A stretch of 64,000 bases of DNA from Atopobiaceae bacterium. Its GTDB lineage: Bacteria; Actinomycetota; Coriobacteriia; Coriobacteriales; Atopobiaceae. Positions 13,076 through 22,506 of the stretch are shown here, one piece after another. Location: NCBI GenBank assembly GCA_017533825.1, contig JAFWIE010000031.1, forward strand, positions 62,001 to 126,000, given 5' to 3'. Every line of letters starts with the position of its first letter. The stretch's first letter is position 1. Below the pieces are notes generated by a model, which was not told where the DNA came from, did not search any database, and was given only the letters and a program-made list of their open reading frames with translations. Position numbers and translations under genes: made by a program.

Positions 13076-13149
13076 AAGGGCACCACAAAGGGGGCTGTCC
13101 TCCGCGGGACAAATCGTCTCGCGGAGGACAGCACCCTTTGTGGTCCCTT
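13076..13149. terminator. Long near-perfect hairpin between cupin and mrp-like genes
   Basis: Two 30-base arms (13076-13106 and 13120-13149) pair with one bulge and one mismatch around a 13-base loop. Arm words include ACCACAAAGGG and GCTGTCCTCCGCG. It can end transcription of the ADH-cupin pair, but the stem is longer than a typical terminator and the T-run is only three bases. Its words recur in the 5878-5912 hairpin. Confidence 0.7.
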
Positions 13150-13228: not shown

Positions 13229-14080
13229 ATGACACCAGAGGAAGAAGAGGCGATTCGCCGCGAGTTCGAGGCGGCACGCAGTGCCGGCCATGACTCACAG
13301 CCGGTACAGGAGGAGCCCCCCACATTCGAGCTCAACGAGTTCAGTCGCATCCGCCACGTGGTCGGCGTCATCTCGGGCAAGGGCGGTGTAGGCAAGTCTC
13401 TCGTGACGGGCATCTTGGCGCGCGAGCTCGCCCGGACCGGTGCCAAGGTGGGCATTCTCGACGCCGACATCACCGGCCCCTCCATCCCCCGCATGTTCGG
13501 AATGGCAGATGAGAAGGCAAGGGGTGTGGCGAACCTCATCGTCCCCGCCCGGACCGCTGGCGGCATGAGGGTCATGAGCGCCAACCTCGTTCTCGAGCAT
13601 GAGGACGATCCCGTTCTTTGGCGCGGCCCCATCCTCGCTGGCGCGATTCGCCAGTTCTGGGCCGAGACCTACTGGGAGGTGCTCGACTACCTGCTCGTGG
13701 ATATGCCTCCCGGAACGGGCGATGTGGCCCTCACGGTATTCCAGTCTCTGCCCATCGACGGCGTGGTCATCGTGAGCAGCCCACAGGATCTGGTGCAGAT
13801 GGTCGTCGGCAAGGCTGTGAACATGGCCAAGATGATGGACGTACCGATATACGGCCTCGTCGAAAACATGGGCTACCTCGAGTGCCCGCACTGCGGCGAG
13901 CGCATCGAGCCGTACGGACCCAGCCGCCTCGAGGCAACCGCCGCGCATTACGGTCTGCGCGCGCTGGGACAACTACCCATCGACGCTCGCTTCGCCACGA
14001 TTTGCGACAAGGGCACGGCCGAGACCGACCTGCCCGACGGGCTTCTCCCCGACGCGATCGCCGCAATCACCAAGGGATAA
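13229..14080 (+). CDS. Mrp/NBP35-type P-loop ATPase (Fe-S cluster carrier)
   Basis: A 283-residue ATPase. The deviant Walker A motif is SGKGGVGKS, followed by the LDADITGPS, VDMPPGTGD and SSPQDL blocks. The signature ENMGYLECPHCGERIEPYG carries the CxxC that in this family holds a bridging [4Fe-4S] cluster between two subunits. It probably loads Fe-S clusters onto target proteins in the cytoplasm. The N-terminal 45 residues are Glu-rich and lack a MIP18/DUF59 domain. GGAGAGGAG precedes the chosen ATG. The Fe-S scaffold-like gene of this window is 30 kb away. Confidence 0.92.
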   Translation: MTPEEEEAIRREFEAARSAGHDSQPVQEEPPTFELNEFSRIRHVVGVISGKGGVGKSLVTGILARELARTGAKVGILDADITGPSIPRMFGMADEKARGVANLIVPARTAGGMRVMSANLVLEHEDDPVLWRGPILAGAIRQFWAETYWEVLDYLLVDMPPGTGDVALTVFQSLPIDGVVIVSSPQDLVQMVVGKAVNMAKMMDVPIYGLVENMGYLECPHCGERIEPYGPSRLEATAAHYGLRALGQLPIDARFATICDKGTAETDLPDGLLPDAIAAITKG

Positions 14081-14104
14081 GAGCCACAACGAGATGGCCT
14101 GTTT

Positions 14105-14141
14105 GGATGGCACTTTCGTACCTGGTACGAAAGTGCCATCC
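14105..14141. repeat. 37-bp almost perfect palindrome
   Basis: 18-base arms reading outward from GGATGGCACTTTCGTACC, separated by a single T at 14123. With a one-base spacer it is DNA-symmetric, like an operator or a REP-type element, rather than a standard RNA terminator. It lies between the mrp-like gene (stop 14080) and the TTG start of the flavoprotein (14160), and overlaps the longer ATG-started frame of the latter. Confidence 0.85.
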
Positions 14142-14159
14142 GGGCAAGAGGAGGTCTCC

Positions 14160-15362
14160 TTGCGCAAAGAGCGACGCCCATCACGCACGAGAGAGCATGC
14201 GAGGCTGCTAGAGGCAGCCAGTCGCATACGCGTACCTGAAGCCACCGACGTCTGTATCGTGGGCGGAGGTGCGGCCGGACTCGTGGCGGCAATTGTCGCC
14301 GCCGAGAACGGCTCGCGCGTCGTCACGCTCGACGCAGACCTTGAGTGCGGGCGCACGATACTCGCCACGGGTAACGGGCGCTGCAACTTCACAAATGTCG
14401 GCCTCGACTCCGCACGCTACAACCAGCCGGAGTTCGTGCGAAACGTCGTTGGGCAATCGTGGCTCGGCGACGTGCTGGCATTCTTCCACGATTGCGGTCT
14501 TGCATGGGAGGAAGAGGCCGAGGGTCGCGTCTACCCCCTCAGTCGACAGGCGGCCTCGGTGCGCAGCGTGCTGCTCGGACGGGCAACGCGCGCTGGCGTC
14601 ATACTCGCACCGGCACGCTCTGTGCGGAGCGTGCGACAGGCGGATGGCGGTTTCGAAGTGGCCTATGAGGAAGCCTTCGACGCGCAAACTCGACGTGTGC
14701 TGCAGTCCCGAACCGTGGTGATGGCAGTCGGAGGAGGGACGGACCTCTGCGAGAACATCGGGCTGCCCATGACGCCATACCTCCCGGTCCTCTGCCCACT
14801 TGGCTGCGAGGGGCCGCTGCTTGCCGAGCTCGACGGGAGGCGCGTCCGCGTGGAGGCACGCCTCATCCGAGCCGGCGTTGAAGTGCTCAGCGAACGGGGC
14901 GAAGTGCTATTCCGGCGATACGGCCTCTCTGGCATCGTGGTTTTCAATCTCTCCCGATACGCACGGCCCGGCGACGAGCTAGTGCTCGATCTTTTGCCGA
15001 CGATGAAGCTCGCTGAGGCACACGAACTGGGTCTGCATACGCTTGACGGACTTCTCGACCCCGTCATCGCACAGGCGCTCACAAAGCTCGAGGGTTCGTG
15101 GGAAGGAGCGCTCACACGAACGAAGGCGCTCACCTATCGCATCATTGGCCCAGCCGACACGGCACACGCCCAAGTCTCGCGCGGAGGCCTAGACGTAAGG
15201 ACATTCAACCCCGCTACACTTGAGGCGCAATCAAAGCCGGGCCTTTTTGCGTGCGGAGAAGCCCTTGACGTGGACGGCCCCTGCGGCGGCTTCAACTTGG
15301 CATGGGCATGGAAGAGCGGCATGGTCGCGGGCGCCGCGGCGGCAAAGGAGACAAGCAGATGA
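14160..15362 (+). CDS. FAD/NAD(P)-binding oxidoreductase, HI0933/BaiN-like
   Basis: A 400-residue flavoprotein. The dinucleotide-binding motif VCIVGGGAAGLVAA is near residue 32, followed by GRTILATGNGRCNFTN, the hallmark of the HI0933/BaiN group, and the C-terminal FAD block FACGEALDVDGPCGGFNLAWAW. Some members (BaiN of Clostridium scindens) reduce bile-acid intermediates, but most are unassigned. I prefer the TTG at 14160 because a GAGGAGG site lies six bases before it; the ATG at 14094 has no such site and would put the 14105-14141 palindrome in the protein. Its stop overlaps the next start (ATGA). Confidence 0.85.
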   Translation: MRKERRPSRTREHARLLEAASRIRVPEATDVCIVGGGAAGLVAAIVAAENGSRVVTLDADLECGRTILATGNGRCNFTNVGLDSARYNQPEFVRNVVGQSWLGDVLAFFHDCGLAWEEEAEGRVYPLSRQAASVRSVLLGRATRAGVILAPARSVRSVRQADGGFEVAYEEAFDAQTRRVLQSRTVVMAVGGGTDLCENIGLPMTPYLPVLCPLGCEGPLLAELDGRRVRVEARLIRAGVEVLSERGEVLFRRYGLSGIVVFNLSRYARPGDELVLDLLPTMKLAEAHELGLHTLDGLLDPVIAQALTKLEGSWEGALTRTKALTYRIIGPADTAHAQVSRGGLDVRTFNPATLEAQSKPGLFACGEALDVDGPCGGFNLAWAWKSGMVAGAAAAKETSR

Positions 15363-16996
15363 TCGAGGTTTCCAACCTACGCGTTCCCCTCAAGCAACTC
15401 GACGGCACCGAGGAGGGAGAGCTGCGCACGTGTCGTCGTGCGGCAGCGCGCAAGCTGGGGATTCGCGAGGGACGCATCCGGCGCATCGAGCTCAGGAAGC
15501 GATCCATCGACGCGCGCAAGCGAACCGCGATTCTGCTCACCTATACCCTGCGACTTGAGGTCCAGGGCGACGAGGTCGAGCTCACGCGCGACAGACGTCA
15601 CAACGCGCGTCTCGTTGAGGAGCTTCCCTACGCGTTGCCCTCACTCCACGCAACTGCACGTAACGGAGACGAGCGCCCCGTAGTCGTTGGCGCTGGCTGT
15701 GCGGGCCTCTTCTGTGCCCTTGCCCTCGCCAGCGCGGGTCTCGCCCCCCTGCTCGTGGAGCAAGGTGATGATGCTGAACGACGCACCGAAGCCGTCCAGC
15801 ACTTCAACGCAACGGGCGAGCTAGACCCACGAAGCAACATCCAGTTTGGCCTCGGCGGTGCCGGGACCTTCTCGGACGGAAAGCTCGGCACGGGAACTTC
15901 GAGTCCCGCGCATCGCCTCATTCTCCAGACGCTCGTCGAGGCAGGTGCACAACGTCGCATCCTCTGGGACGCAAAACCACATGTGGGCAGCGACGTCCTG
16001 CCCGGCGTCGTCACGCGCATCGTGCAGAGAATTGAGGGCCTCGGAGGCGAGGTACGCTTCCGTACGCAACTCACCGGGTTGGACTGCGAGCACGGACGCG
16101 TAACGGGCGTGCGGCTCCTGCGCGAGGGCCGAGAGGAGCGTGTTGCGACCCACAACGTCGTACTCGCTTGCGGGCATTCCGCCCGTGACGTCTTTGAACT
16201 GCTCGATCGCGAGGGCGTGGCGCTCGAACGGAAGACCTTCGCCATGGGCGTGCGCATCGAACACCTGCAATCGAGCGTCGACCGAGCGCTCTTTGGTCCG
16301 TCGGCCGGTCATCCCGCCCTAGGCGCGGCATCCTACAAGCTGGCCGAGCACCTACCCGGCGGACGAAGCGCGTTCTCGTTCTGCATGTGCCCGGGCGGCT
16401 ACGTGGTGGCGGCTGCCAGCGAACAGGGCGGTGTGGTCACGAACGGCATGAGCCTCTCAGACCGCGCGGGCATCAACGCGAACGCAGGCCTGCTCGCAAA
16501 CGTCTTTCCCGAGGACCTGCCCGGCGATGACGTGTTGGCCGGTATTGAGTTGCAGCGCACTTGCGAACAAGCTGCCTACGAGAGGGGTGGCGGCGGAAGA
16601 GGCACAGGCGCGTTCGCGGCACCCGCGCAGCTCGTCGGAGACTTCTTGGCACAAGCGCCCTCGTCTGCGGCGGGGTCCGTCAAGCCCACCTATCCACGCG
16701 GAGTGACATGGGGAGCGCTGGAAGGCACCCTCCCCGAGTACGTGCTCGAGACGCTGCGTGGCGTCATCCCGCGCATGGAGCACAAGCTCCGTGGCTTCTC
16801 TGCGCCCGACGCCGTGCTCACGGGCGTGGAGACCCGCTCCAGCTCACCCGTGCGCGTGACGCGCGGCAAGGACGGACAGTCCGTCAGCACCCCCGGCTTG
16901 TGGCCCTGCGGAGAGGGGGCTGGCTATGCCGGCGGCATCATGAGTGCCGCCACCGACGGCCTGCGCACCGCCGAAGCCCTCATCGCCCATCACTGA
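15359..16996 (+). CDS. FAD-dependent dehydrogenase (COG2509-like)
   Basis: A 545-residue flavoprotein. A distinctive N-terminal region of about 95 residues (ending near HARLVEEL) precedes the FAD-binding loop VVVGAGCAGLFCALAL. Other blocks are NIQFGLGGAGTFSDGKLGTG, SFCMCPGGYVVAAAS, and the C-terminal LWPCGEGAGYAGGIMSAATDG. This is a widespread uncharacterised family in anaerobes. The start lies inside the stop of the preceding flavoprotein (ATGA), so the two are translationally coupled and may act on related substrates. Confidence 0.88.
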   Translation: MIEVSNLRVPLKQLDGTEEGELRTCRRAAARKLGIREGRIRRIELRKRSIDARKRTAILLTYTLRLEVQGDEVELTRDRRHNARLVEELPYALPSLHATARNGDERPVVVGAGCAGLFCALALASAGLAPLLVEQGDDAERRTEAVQHFNATGELDPRSNIQFGLGGAGTFSDGKLGTGTSSPAHRLILQTLVEAGAQRRILWDAKPHVGSDVLPGVVTRIVQRIEGLGGEVRFRTQLTGLDCEHGRVTGVRLLREGREERVATHNVVLACGHSARDVFELLDREGVALERKTFAMGVRIEHLQSSVDRALFGPSAGHPALGAASYKLAEHLPGGRSAFSFCMCPGGYVVAAASEQGGVVTNGMSLSDRAGINANAGLLANVFPEDLPGDDVLAGIELQRTCEQAAYERGGGGRGTGAFAAPAQLVGDFLAQAPSSAAGSVKPTYPRGVTWGALEGTLPEYVLETLRGVIPRMEHKLRGFSAPDAVLTGVETRSSSPVRVTRGKDGQSVSTPGLWPCGEGAGYAGGIMSAATDGLRTAEALIAHH

Positions 16997-17020
16997 CCGG
17001 AAGTTCTGCTCTTCGGTCAG
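16993..17020 (+). terminator. Hairpin at the end of the flavoprotein pair
   Basis: Arms CTGACCGGAAG and CTTCGGTCAG pair with one bulged G around a seven-base loop. The stem includes the stop codon of the flavoprotein gene. No T-run follows, so its strength as a terminator is uncertain. Confidence 0.5.
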
Positions 17021-17035
17021 GGTGGCCACGCATCT

Positions 17036-17340
17036 GTCTCGACCCTCAACCATGGGGGCCTTCGGCGGAGCGTAGCGCCAAAGGGGGTGGGCCGATTGTC
17101 CGTGGATGCCCGGTTTGTGCAGGCCTACACCGTTCGTTGGGGTCCAACCCTCATGGGCGAACCCATGGACGGTCTCCCGGCAGTCCCGCCGACTTTGGCT
17201 CTCGGGACTATGCCGCTTCTTGGGGGCAAACACAACAAAGCACAGGTTTCTTCGGCGGTCGGTATGGGTTCGTGGAGCAAAATCCTTCGGATTCAGTGCG
17301 CGGCCCGGAAGGTTTTGGACACAGGCGGTGAGGGGGAACT
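17036..17340. ncRNA. Candidate structured non-coding RNA
   Basis: This stretch between convergent genes has no convincing protein frame but is dense in hairpins. Stems include CCGT/ACGG (17130 and 17169) enclosing two hairpins, GTTGG/CCAAC (17136-17148) and CATGGG/CCCATG (17152-17167); then CGGCA-GTCCCG pairing with CGGGAC-TA-TGCCG (17178-17215); then AATCC/GGATT (17281-17293). The layout of a branched junction followed by a long bulged stem is what a structured RNA would show. The strand cannot be settled. Ordinary RNase P, tmRNA and SRP consensus words are missing. The rest of the 16997-17692 gap holds the inverted-repeat element 17347-17501 and a plain stretch 17502-17692. Confidence 0.35.
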
Positions 17341-17346
17341 GCATTA

Positions 17347-17501
17347 GTGCGGAAAATCGTCGGGCGATTCTCTCATCAACTGGGAATTTTTCATGTTTGA
17401 TATCGATTTTCCGCAGTGGCTATTTTACCCACTGTGGAAAATCGATATAAATATCGGTAAATTCCCAGTTGGTGTCTAATCCATGCAACGATTTTCCGCA
17501 C
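17347..17501. repeat. 155-bp inverted-repeat element with nested blocks
   Basis: Two 73-base arms (17347-17419 and 17429-17501) around a nine-base A/T-rich loop. Each arm has three conserved blocks of 14, 13 and 19 bases, separated by unconserved spacers of exactly 16 and 11 bases. The word GCGGAAAATCG occurs four times with alternating orientation (17349, 17404, 17434 with one change, 17489), and CAACTGGGAATTT twice. The element is flanked by TTA on both sides. It lies 3' of both neighbouring genes (flavoprotein and uvrB), where no operator is needed. Candidates are a palindromic small RNA, a cluster of protein-binding sites or a non-autonomous mobile element. Confidence 0.9.
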
Positions 17502-17692
17502 TTATGCACAAGAGTGATGTCACCTCTTGCATGGTTTTGGGCGTTTTGCTCCCCGAGGCACCTCACAAGCAGCGCAAGTGACGCCCTTCCCACCCGCCGC
17601 CCAAGCATGGCACCGCAGGCGCCGCCCGTGACAACACCCTCCGCCCCCGTTGTCACTGGGTCGGTGGTCAGAGACCGACAGTCACCTCGCAG

Positions 17693-19924
<2,232 letters not shown>

Positions 19925-20064
19925 GATATCTCCTCTCGCATGCCGTACCAGTATAGCAAGGCAAGGCAGTGCGACGAGGGCAACTCACTTCGCTCCTGTG
20001 GATCACGGCAACACGCTATGATGGTAGACGGCAAAGCGGGAAACTCTTGAAGCGAGGTGCGCTG

Positions 20065-20670
20065 ATGATCGAAAACAAGCTTGGAGTTCATGACCCCGTG
20101 ACGCTTGCCCACGAGGAAGAGCGCATCTCCAAGGCGGCAGCATTCCGCCTGTATCGCGATGGAACGCTCGATGCGCTGATTCCAGGCAGTTTCGTGGCTC
20201 TGCAAACGATCCATGCGCGCATGTTCGGCGAGATATATGATTTCGCCGGCAAGGTGCGCACGGTCAACTTGGCAAAGGGAGGCTTTCGCTTTGCTTCTGC
20301 GCTGTACTTGGACTCAGCCATCAAAGCCGTCGAACGAATGCCGCAGACTACCTTCGACGAAATCGTTGAGAAGTACGTCGAGATGAACGTCGCGCACCCC
20401 TTCCGCCAGGGAAACGGACGAAGCGGTCGCATTTGGCTCGATCACATACTTCGTGCCGAGCTTGGCAAGACCATCGATTGGTCCTCTATAACGCGTGACG
20501 ACTATCTCTTTGCGATGGAGCGGAGCCCGATCCGCGACCTTGAGCTCAAGGCGCTGTTACGAGGCGCCCTATCCGACCGCCTCGACAATGCATCGCTTCT
20601 GGCACGCGGCATCGACATGAGCTATGCCTACGAGGGCTACGCCGCCTACCGCACTGAGGACCTGCAGTGA
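20065..20670 (+). CDS. Class III Fic protein (AMP transferase, self-inhibited)
   Basis: A 201-residue stand-alone Fic-domain protein. The catalytic loop HPFRQGNGRSGR (near residue 114) is complete. The C-terminus has DMSYAYEGY, which matches the inhibitory motif (S/T)xxxE(G/N); a C-terminal position defines class III, represented by NmFic of Neisseria meningitidis, which adenylylates DNA gyrase and is restrained by its own helix. I infer an analogous regulated AMP transferase or toxin. No separate VbhA-like antitoxin gene is adjacent. The start at 20065 is chosen because the upstream part of the open frame has no Fic homology and GCGAGGTG lies before it. It is divergent from uvrB. Confidence 0.88.
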   Translation: MIENKLGVHDPVTLAHEEERISKAAAFRLYRDGTLDALIPGSFVALQTIHARMFGEIYDFAGKVRTVNLAKGGFRFASALYLDSAIKAVERMPQTTFDEIVEKYVEMNVAHPFRQGNGRSGRIWLDHILRAELGKTIDWSSITRDDYLFAMERSPIRDLELKALLRGALSDRLDNASLLARGIDMSYAYEGYAAYRTEDLQ

Positions 20671-20721
20671 CCGCTAGCCTCTGAGGAAGGTTGCCTGACC
20701 CTCCGGCTTACGGGCAAACGG

Positions 20722-22506
20722 TCAGCAGACCCATTTGTCGATGATGGTGGGCGCGGGATAACCCCAGTCCTCCTCGACGTAGCGGGCGGTACGAATGAAG
20801 TCGGCCTTCTCGAGCACGCGCGCCGACGCGACATTCTCGACCATCGTGCTTGCGGTGGCGATTTCGATGTCGGTCTCTGCGTAGAGATACCCCACCATCA
20901 GACGCGTTGCCTCCGTAGCGATGCCCTGGCCCCACCAGCACCTGCGCAGCCGACACCCAATGCTCACCTTGTGCAGGTTGTCGCGCAAGCCATAGTACTC
21001 TGCCAAGCCAACAAACTCTCCGCTTTCCCTCCTGCGAATGGCCAAGACAAGCGATTCCTTGTTCTTGAAGATGTCGCCGTAGAGCAGGCGAATCGTCTCG
21101 TGCGGATCATCGTGCTGCAGCTCGATGAGATACGCTGGCAGCCAGCGCCGAACGAGTGGGTCACCTGCCAAGTCTCGCAGAGCATCGGCGTCGGCATCAA
21201 CGACCTTGTTGATTACGACGCGCTCGCCCTCTATACCGGGAATCTCGTCAAAGAGCTTCTTGTCTCCTTGCACAGACGCCACCGGCGCGTCCTCCGTCTC
21301 AGACGCGGAATCCGCGGCCAGAAGAATCGTCTCCCTATACTCCTGTGCAAGCCTTGCGCGTCGCTCGGCCCCCTGCCTCCGCGCGTCCTCTTCGAGCTCG
21401 TCGAAGCTACGCCGACCACCGGCATGCTCTGCGAGGAATTTCTCTCGTTCGTATGCCTCGAAGAGACGCCTGCGGTCGCGCCGTTGTCGACTCACCTGAT
21501 TGAGGCTCTCTGCCTCGATGAAGATGCGCGTCGCCTGCGAGTACTCCCCCACGACTTCGTCCTCGATGCGGTCGATAGCCATGAGCACGCCACCCTCCGC
21601 CAAGTCGTCGTTGAAGGTCACGTCCAGGTTGATGAGCAAGTCCTCCGGCCCGAGGTACAGCGAAAGGACACGCCCGCACTTTATGACATCCGGGTCACTC
21701 TCCACGATGGAAACGACGTCATTGACTTCCTCTAGCGTAAGGCCCTCGCCGATGAGAAGACCGCGGGTCTCGCGCAGGAGCACGAGGGCGATAAGGGCCA
21801 TGATGACGCCAATGACTACGGAAGCCCATGCGTCGATGATGTAGTTGCCTGTCACCTGCGACGCGATGTTGCCCACTAAGGCCACGACCATACCGCCAAC
21901 CGCCGCCGTGTCCTCCAGAAAGACGGTGATGTTCGTCGGACTCTTCGACTCGCGGATGTACTTCATGATGCGCATGTCGCCGCGTTCCCTATTCACCGTG
22001 CGCACCGCCACCGAGAGCGAGAAGCCCTCAAAGATGATGCCAATCACGAGCACCACGTAGTTCACGAGCGGGTTCTCGATGGGATGCCCACCGGCAAGGA
22101 CGTTCTGGATGCCCTCATAGATAACGAATCCGCCGCCAAGCACGAAGATGACGAGCGCCACCGCGAGGCTGTAGAAGTACAGCTCGGAACCATAGCCAAA
22201 GGGATGCTCCACGTCGGGCTTACGCTTCGAGAGTCGGTTGCCCACGAGCAGGAGCGAGTCATTGATGGCGTCTACCATCGAGTGGATACCCTCCGAGAGC
22301 ATGGCGGAAGAGCCCGTAAGGTACGCCGCGAAGAATTTCACGATGGACACGATCACGCCTGCGCCGACGGCCACCACCACGGCGGCGTTATCCTGCAGCC
22401 TCTCGGTCGCCATGAGGTTCGCACGCTTCTCGCGTTGGCGTTGCGCTCGAGCTCTTGCGTCCCGTATGTCGGCCTCGTCCCCGTTCTCGAACGCGGTATC
22501 GGCCAT
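20722..22506 (-). CDS. CDF metal transporter fused to a GNAT acetyltransferase
   Basis: A 594-residue two-domain protein. Residues about 35-330 form a cation diffusion facilitator with six membrane helices; helix II carries HSMVD, and TVFLEDTAAV followed by IIDAWAS resembles the SLC30A9 (ZnT9) branch. A charged, probably coiled-coil segment (about 330-400, many Arg and Glu) leads to a C-terminal GNAT domain of RimJ type (about 425-594) with VSIGCRLRRCWWGQGIATEA as the acetyl-CoA loop. CDF proteins export Zn, Fe or Mn by proton exchange; GNAT domains acetylate amines. The joint is in one uninterrupted frame. AGAGGTAG precedes the ATG, and the 22615-22742 repeat lies upstream. Confidence 0.85.
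   Translation of the reverse strand: MADTAFENGDEADIRDARARAQRQREKRANLMATERLQDNAAVVVAVGAGVIVSIVKFFAAYLTGSSAMLSEGIHSMVDAINDSLLLVGNRLSKRKPDVEHPFGYGSELYFYSLAVALVIFVLGGGFVIYEGIQNVLAGGHPIENPLVNYVVLVIGIIFEGFSLSVAVRTVNRERGDMRIMKYIRESKSPTNITVFLEDTAAVGGMVVALVGNIASQVTGNYIIDAWASVVIGVIMALIALVLLRETRGLLIGEGLTLEEVNDVVSIVESDPDVIKCGRVLSLYLGPEDLLINLDVTFNDDLAEGGVLMAIDRIEDEVVGEYSQATRIFIEAESLNQVSRQRRDRRRLFEAYEREKFLAEHAGGRRSFDELEEDARRQGAERRARLAQEYRETILLAADSASETEDAPVASVQGDKKLFDEIPGIEGERVVINKVVDADADALRDLAGDPLVRRWLPAYLIELQHDDPHETIRLLYGDIFKNKESLVLAIRRRESGEFVGLAEYYGLRDNLHKVSIGCRLRRCWWGQGIATEATRLMVGYLYAETDIEIATASTMVENVASARVLEKADFIRTARYVEEDWGYPAPTIIDKWVC

Follow-up and report, generated by a model that had tools for sequence, protein, structure and literature searches.

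A probable REPIN-like palindrome family linked to a DUF559-type gene in an Atopobiaceae bacterium and its relatives

Introduction

What is the long palindrome that lies between two convergent genes of an Atopobiaceae bacterium (genome G000), and is it peculiar to this locus? The window analysed here, a 64-kb stretch of that genome, had been described in a first-pass annotation as containing a palindromic element with four alternating copies of one word, lying 3' to both of its neighbours and flanked by TTA at both ends. All of these statements hold on closer analysis, and the element proves to belong to a family of copies of 157 bp. Below we describe its anatomy, its relatives in the same and other genomes and the gene with which it is associated, and we weigh the explanations that could account for it.

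The palindrome and its neighbourhood

The symmetry about position 17424 comprises 57 complementary positions out of 78 (z = 8.8 with respect to the rest of the 64-kb window, where the mean is 20.3, the sd 4.2 and the next best site 45), and the element folds as single-stranded DNA with -54.5 kcal/mol (z = -13.8). A repeat search of the window returned 49-nt arms that are 80% complementary and 21-nt outer arms that are 95% complementary. The word TGCGGAAAATCG stands at 17348(+), 17404(-), 17433(+) and 17489(-), and TTA at 17344-17346 and 17502-17504. The left neighbour, a FAD-oxidoreductase-like ORF on the plus strand, ends at 16996, and the right one, uvrB on the minus strand, ends at 17693, both converging on the palindrome. 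No Rfam family matched window positions 14000-22000 at the gathering score and no terminator-like site was found at the window copy. The features are the following:

17346..17502, whole element, 157 bp from the A of AGTGCGG to the T of CCGCACT, centre 17424 (from a 34-copy alignment and symmetry)
17348..17359, plus strand, word 1, outer left, TGCGGAAAATCG
17362..17376, left variable spacer, constant in length and near random in sequence across copies
17377..17383, plus strand, B box CAACTGG, common to the subfamilies, with a TTT(A)CC-like block next to it
17404..17415, minus strand, word 2, inverted, inner left, CGATTTTCCGCA
17416..17432, centre GTGGCTATTTTACCCAC, with a 3-base loop TTT or AAA depending on the copy
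17433..17444, plus strand, word 3, inner right, TGTGGAAAATCG (begins TGTGG)
17465..17471, minus strand, right-arm B box CCAGTTG
17472..17486, right variable spacer, of fixed length
17489..17500, minus strand, word 4, inverted, outer right, CGATTTTCCGCA
17503..17520, minus strand, position of a one-sided extension, consensus ATATAnCnTTTGTGCATA (minus strand), in this subfamily only and degenerate in the window copy

Two other sites of the window were observed. A near-perfect hairpin, CACAAAGGGGGCTGTCCTCCGCGGGA...CGCGGAGGACAGCACCCTTTGTGG, its second most symmetric site, lies at 13086-13146 between a cupin-like ORF and a Mrp-like ATPase ORF, and an ORF with HPFRQGNGRSGR, a Fic-type motif, lies beside uvrB (19969-20670).

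Conserved words and free spacers

The span of 157 bp is identical in 34 of 34 intact copies from two species, G000 and its sister species G011 (MAG RUG14419, an uncultured Coriobacteriaceae), and the conserved words occupy element positions 2-13, 58-69, 87-98 and 143-154. Conservation extends to the B boxes (CAACTGG and, on the right arm, CCAGTTG), to the accompanying TTTACC / GGTAAA and to the central TGGCTAwwwTAGCCA. Identity among the G000 copies is 95% in the words, 86% in the blocks and 36% in the spacers, and across nine orthologous pairs (G000 versus G011) it is 92%, 87% and 61%, respectively, so the spacers drift while the words are held. Constant spacing, combined with spacers whose sequence is free to vary, is what recognition of a defined geometry would lead one to expect.

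Base pairs have also changed in a paired manner, with 21 of 39 altered on both sides in an alignment of 18 sequences; in this alignment, which contains the sequences from which the structure was first proposed, covariation is 0.308 versus 0.102 when shuffled and at most 0.081 when slid, and 0 of 500 shuffles score as high. Coordinated changes of the two arms also occur between the species, one of which has, for example, ATATCG/CGATAT where the other has ATAACG/CGTTAT. Protein binding or a cruciform had been preferred in the first-pass annotation to a simple RNA stem; the conserved blocks and the random spacers of fixed length fit this preference, whereas the hairpin covariation leaves room for a role as a single strand, and binding is what we infer.

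The TTA flanks belong to a conserved asymmetry in which one end reads TAAG and the other TTAG, and 28 of 34 copies have an A facing an A. The TTA/TAA direct repeat is confined to the window subfamily, where the conserved TAAG/TTAG asymmetry of the ends makes a target duplication the less likely reading. A one-sided TATAnC + TTTGTGCAT extension is conserved among the 34 copies of the window subfamily and puts a TATA-like box 12-17 nt beyond one of the ends; no such extension was found in the other subfamilies examined, and no -35 signal lies beside the box in the 34 copies. The triplet at the centre is either TTT or AAA, and certain positions are restricted to C/G or to A/T with no pairing across the palindrome: tested as a base-pair signal, position pair 70/86 (C or G only) is unpaired and positions 77-78 are A or T only. 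These restrictions hint at an inversion of the inner part or at shape readout.

Two further candidates were rejected. A DnaA-box reading (the inner word contains TTTTCCACA) fails on the fact that the word changes wholly between subfamilies, and a peptide-coding reading (AAC TGG GAA TTT ... as an ORF) on the in-frame stops and differing codon positions of other subfamilies.

A dispersed and old family of copies

The window palindrome is one copy of a large dispersed family. The G000 genome has 43 occurrences of the word TGCGGAAAATCG and 0 of a reversed control, and the BLASTN search that had been proposed at first pass identified 22 distinct same-word copies in G000, in addition to more divergent copies with a different word. 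About 15-18 copies are present in G011. At least nine copies occupy corresponding positions in the two species, as judged from the flanking genes, with about 78-93% nucleotide identity, indicating that they are of old date and held under constraint where they are. The restriction to a single locus with random decay, named beforehand as the outcome that would argue against a functional or mobile element, is excluded by the many copies and by these common positions.

A clean empty site, of the kind that the first-pass annotation had suggested looking for, was not found: the one G011 site examined, occupied in G000, keeps a decayed end alone, which represents a loss. A convergent gene pair matching that of the window is present in G003 without the element. 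Two G000 copies (C84:45177 and C84:65298) resemble each other over 235 bp around the element only, which fits copying as a unit, with recombination as an alternative. The genes next to the copies are unrelated and lie in tandem (31), divergent (20) or convergent (19) orientation. Searches of plasmids and phages with the element sequence gave no match and no target duplication was seen.

Other mobile or repeated sequences were observed in G011. In three element copies (C83, C80 and C16, loci L169, L172 and L174) an IS with the end ...CGCTCAACGACGACA is inserted at one identical point, before AACGATTTTCC at the edge of word 2, and these three of the six insertions with known junctions mark a hot spot. 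IS elements that target REPs are known. At a different site (C2:158292, L162), a RAYT-like Y1 protein lies amid a different repeat, GGAACAGGGGACG, the genome thus containing two unrelated gene-plus-repeat systems.

The same architecture with other words

Weak matches in other species correspond to the same element with another word, all four sites having switched together, and within one element all four words agree. A covariance model of 18 sequences retrieves the architecture in 16 of 16 genomes of the genus and also in two other genera of the same family, g2 and g9. In the G009 and G010 subfamilies the whole B box is inverted. The words include:

GTGCGGAAAATCG, G000 and G011
GTGGGAAnAA, G015
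GTGTAAAGTCG, G014
GTGTACCTTTG, G009 and G010
GTGGACAATCG, G006
GTGTACGCGCG, G004
ATGGGAAATGA, G001 and G002

A putative partner gene with the matching word beside it

Clustering of the neighbouring genes brought out one protein of ~377 aa that adjoins elements in five species. The gene situated immediately upstream of a copy with the window's word is on G000 contig C36 (12592-13716, minus strand, ~377 aa), and a search of the genus retrieved about 27 close homologues with at least 43% identity to the C36 protein. In 25 of these 27 the element follows immediately on the 3' side of the gene, namely at 21 of 21 first-tier loci by the word test and the model together (two of them score zero by the word test alone and two just below the threshold) and at four of six further loci. 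The model match is situated about 100 bp past the stop codon of most close homologues, and the same word test finds an element upstream of the gene at 0 of 21 first-tier loci. Two first-tier loci where the element is missing are G014:C47, where the gene is split, and G011:C10.

The word linked to the gene is also the dispersed word in G000, G011, G014, G015, G009, G010, G006 and G004. Two genes and two words are present in G000, the C36 gene corresponding to the window's family and the second gene to the C17 copy. A prediction made from this matching was borne out in G014, where a word without partner at C33 (AGTGGACAATTTTTT) was then found behind the gene at C50. For other dispersed words (G014:C70, C14b, C130 and C180; G003:C52 and C67; G004:C102; G005:C147) no matching gene was found in the draft genomes. 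Protein and word distances are correlated (Mantel r 0.43, p 0.0002), but the correlation is lost (p 0.16) after removal of close orthologues. Dispersed copies outnumber partner genes by about ten to one, and some of them lie between divergent genes. Distant homologues with four-word elements of other spacing were also identified, on both sides of the gene at L310 and L331 and additionally at L278, L290, L302 and L359, and the four-word test detected no adjacent element at most homologues in the genera g4 and g48.

In both species the element has also been duplicated along with a gene (G000:C84:31076 and 33555; G011:C8:22400 and 24943), the G000 duplicates having 366 bp in common that are about 93% identical.

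A divergent DUF559-type protein

The first-tier proteins have no relative in Pfam (including at the cut-off of DUF559, PF04480), NCBIfam, PADLOC or PDB profiles. Their family aligns with the second-tier paralogues at 2.8e-40 (hhalign), and in a family-level sample 24 of 24 distant homologues that are above the Pfam DUF559 cut-off match the family HMM (3e-12 to 4e-31). Judged by these profile matches, the ~377-aa protein is a divergent DUF559 (PD-(D/E)XK, Vsr-like) homologue. DUF559 belongs to the PD-(D/E)XK superfamily and is found in Vsr-like endonucleases (PMC12907096). The protein resembles these in its alignment with distant homologues, which spans their DUF559 domain, and in keeping PD and YDG..H; unlike them, it falls below the Pfam cut-off, carries an insertion after H257 and has an invariant N in place of the E of E-Y-D that is present in the distant homologues. 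Nuclease activity is uncertain because of this replacement in the (E/N)-Y-D motif. Single-sequence structure prediction gave a pLDDT of 35.5, too poor for a reading of the fold. The dN/dS ratio between G000 and G011 is 0.16, so the partner protein is under purifying selection. Homologues are present in 182 of 296 Coriobacteriia genomes, and no match was found in plasmids or viral contigs.

Proposed explanation and alternatives

We interpret the palindrome, with a probability of roughly 0.6, as a REPIN-like element that is recognised through its word and was probably once spread by the DUF559-type protein. The element would consist of two hairpin units in inverted arrangement, each with the word at one edge and its reverse complement at the other, in the order word/complement/word/complement. 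The word would act as a recognition code, each subfamily having its own gene and word, and the C36 protein would be the cognate partner of the window's word. Most likely it would bind the word, four times per element, in DNA that is folded or cruciform, and would have driven, at least formerly, the copying of the element to new intergenic sites; DNA cleavage or transposition, and any benefit to the host, are further possibilities. The present copies would be mostly inherited vertically and under selection in place, and the protein-word pair may persist vertically, as REPIN/RAYT pairs do (PMC3116915).

The words that stay unchanged at a given site from one species to the other despite drifting spacers, the nine or more positions common to G000 and G011 and the occurrence in all gene orientations could also be expected if a domesticated DUF559-type protein bound immobile palindromes as fixed chromosomal sites, for chromosome organisation, repair or regulation. 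We regard this as unlikely, though it deserves attention: units of a fixed 157 bp, common boxes outside the words and discrete 235-bp segments look like a repeat family, copy number and word vary by species, and pure binding sites have no need for a long hairpin. A much smaller chance is given to the view that the copies are genes for structured non-coding RNAs, in which the TATA-like box would be the promoter and the long hairpin the RNA. The one-sided extension of the 34 window-subfamily copies and the strong hairpin covariation speak for it, but this reading was demoted because no subfamily but one has the TATA-like end; moreover, the -35 signal, the terminator-like site and the Rfam match are lacking as described above, the whole B box stands inverted in G009 and G010, and an RNA hairpin has no need for word 1 to equal word 3.

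It is very improbable that the element is an ordinary REP/BIME or MITE for which a RAYT or IS200/IS605 transposase of the same genome provides the mobility. The palindromes do form an intergenic family, and Y1 transposases are present in members of the genus, including RAYT-like ones of 255-337 aa, but the RAYT-like locus of G011 is flanked by other repeats (GGAACAGGGGAC) and not by the 157-bp element, there is no GTAG-type tag, and the element-linked gene does not encode a Y1 protein. Hardly more credible is that the element serves only as terminator or attenuator at the 3' end of the DUF559-type gene, with the dispersed copies as by-products of recombination; its constant position 3' of the gene would be so explained, but not the roughly ten copies per gene, those between divergent genes, or the words of dispersed copies, which are under constraint and better kept than the flanking DNA.

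Relation to known systems and significance

The REPIN-like element proposed here resembles REPIN/RAYT systems (PMC3116915) in being an extragenic inverted doublet of palindromic units that can form either one hairpin or a clover, dispersed in one genome, with a group-specific sequence, a copy beside a single-copy partner gene and long vertical persistence. The repeat beside the partner gene is the dispersed repeat in both cases. The partner here is, in contrast, a DUF559 (PD-(D/E)XK-like) protein with no PF01797 match and no conserved HxH, whereas that of REPINs is the Y1/HUH tyrosine transposase RAYT (PF01797). Furthermore, no GTAG (or CGTC) tag stands at the foot of the units, whose ends are TTAG/TAAG or A-rich; the length is fixed at 157 bp with words of 12-16 bp and loops of ~45 nt, compared with 20-40 bp for REPs; and the copies number tens instead of hundreds. 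We do not file the system under REPIN/RAYT because the Y1 transposase and the GTAG tag are both absent. With MITEs, which are non-autonomous IS derivatives, the element shares its small size, dispersal, terminal inverted repeats and lack of an internal gene, but it has no visible target duplication, no matching transposase and a word that is repeated internally, and the linked gene lies outside the palindrome, with the element on one side only in the first-tier loci.

More generally, DUF559/Vsr-type proteins may recognise four copies of a subfamily-specific word in a palindrome that is folded, and may spread this palindrome over the chromosome, forming a class of repeat systems programmable by divergence, unrelated to IS200/IS605 and widespread in Coriobacteriia, in which protein and word co-diversify; we put this forward tentatively, at somewhat less than even odds. 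To our knowledge, all well-described bacterial REP/REPIN families are tied to one protein type, RAYT, and a literature search in which subscription journals were mostly not covered returned no earlier report tying DUF559 to repeats. Coriobacteriia are common gut and rumen bacteria, and the association offers a lead to the function of DUF559-type proteins, which are abundant and unannotated in this class, while the matched protein-word pairs of about a dozen species provide a direct handle on specificity. If true, the proposal would add a second, unrelated protein to the gene-plus-palindrome arrangement and would imply that this lifestyle evolves repeatedly.
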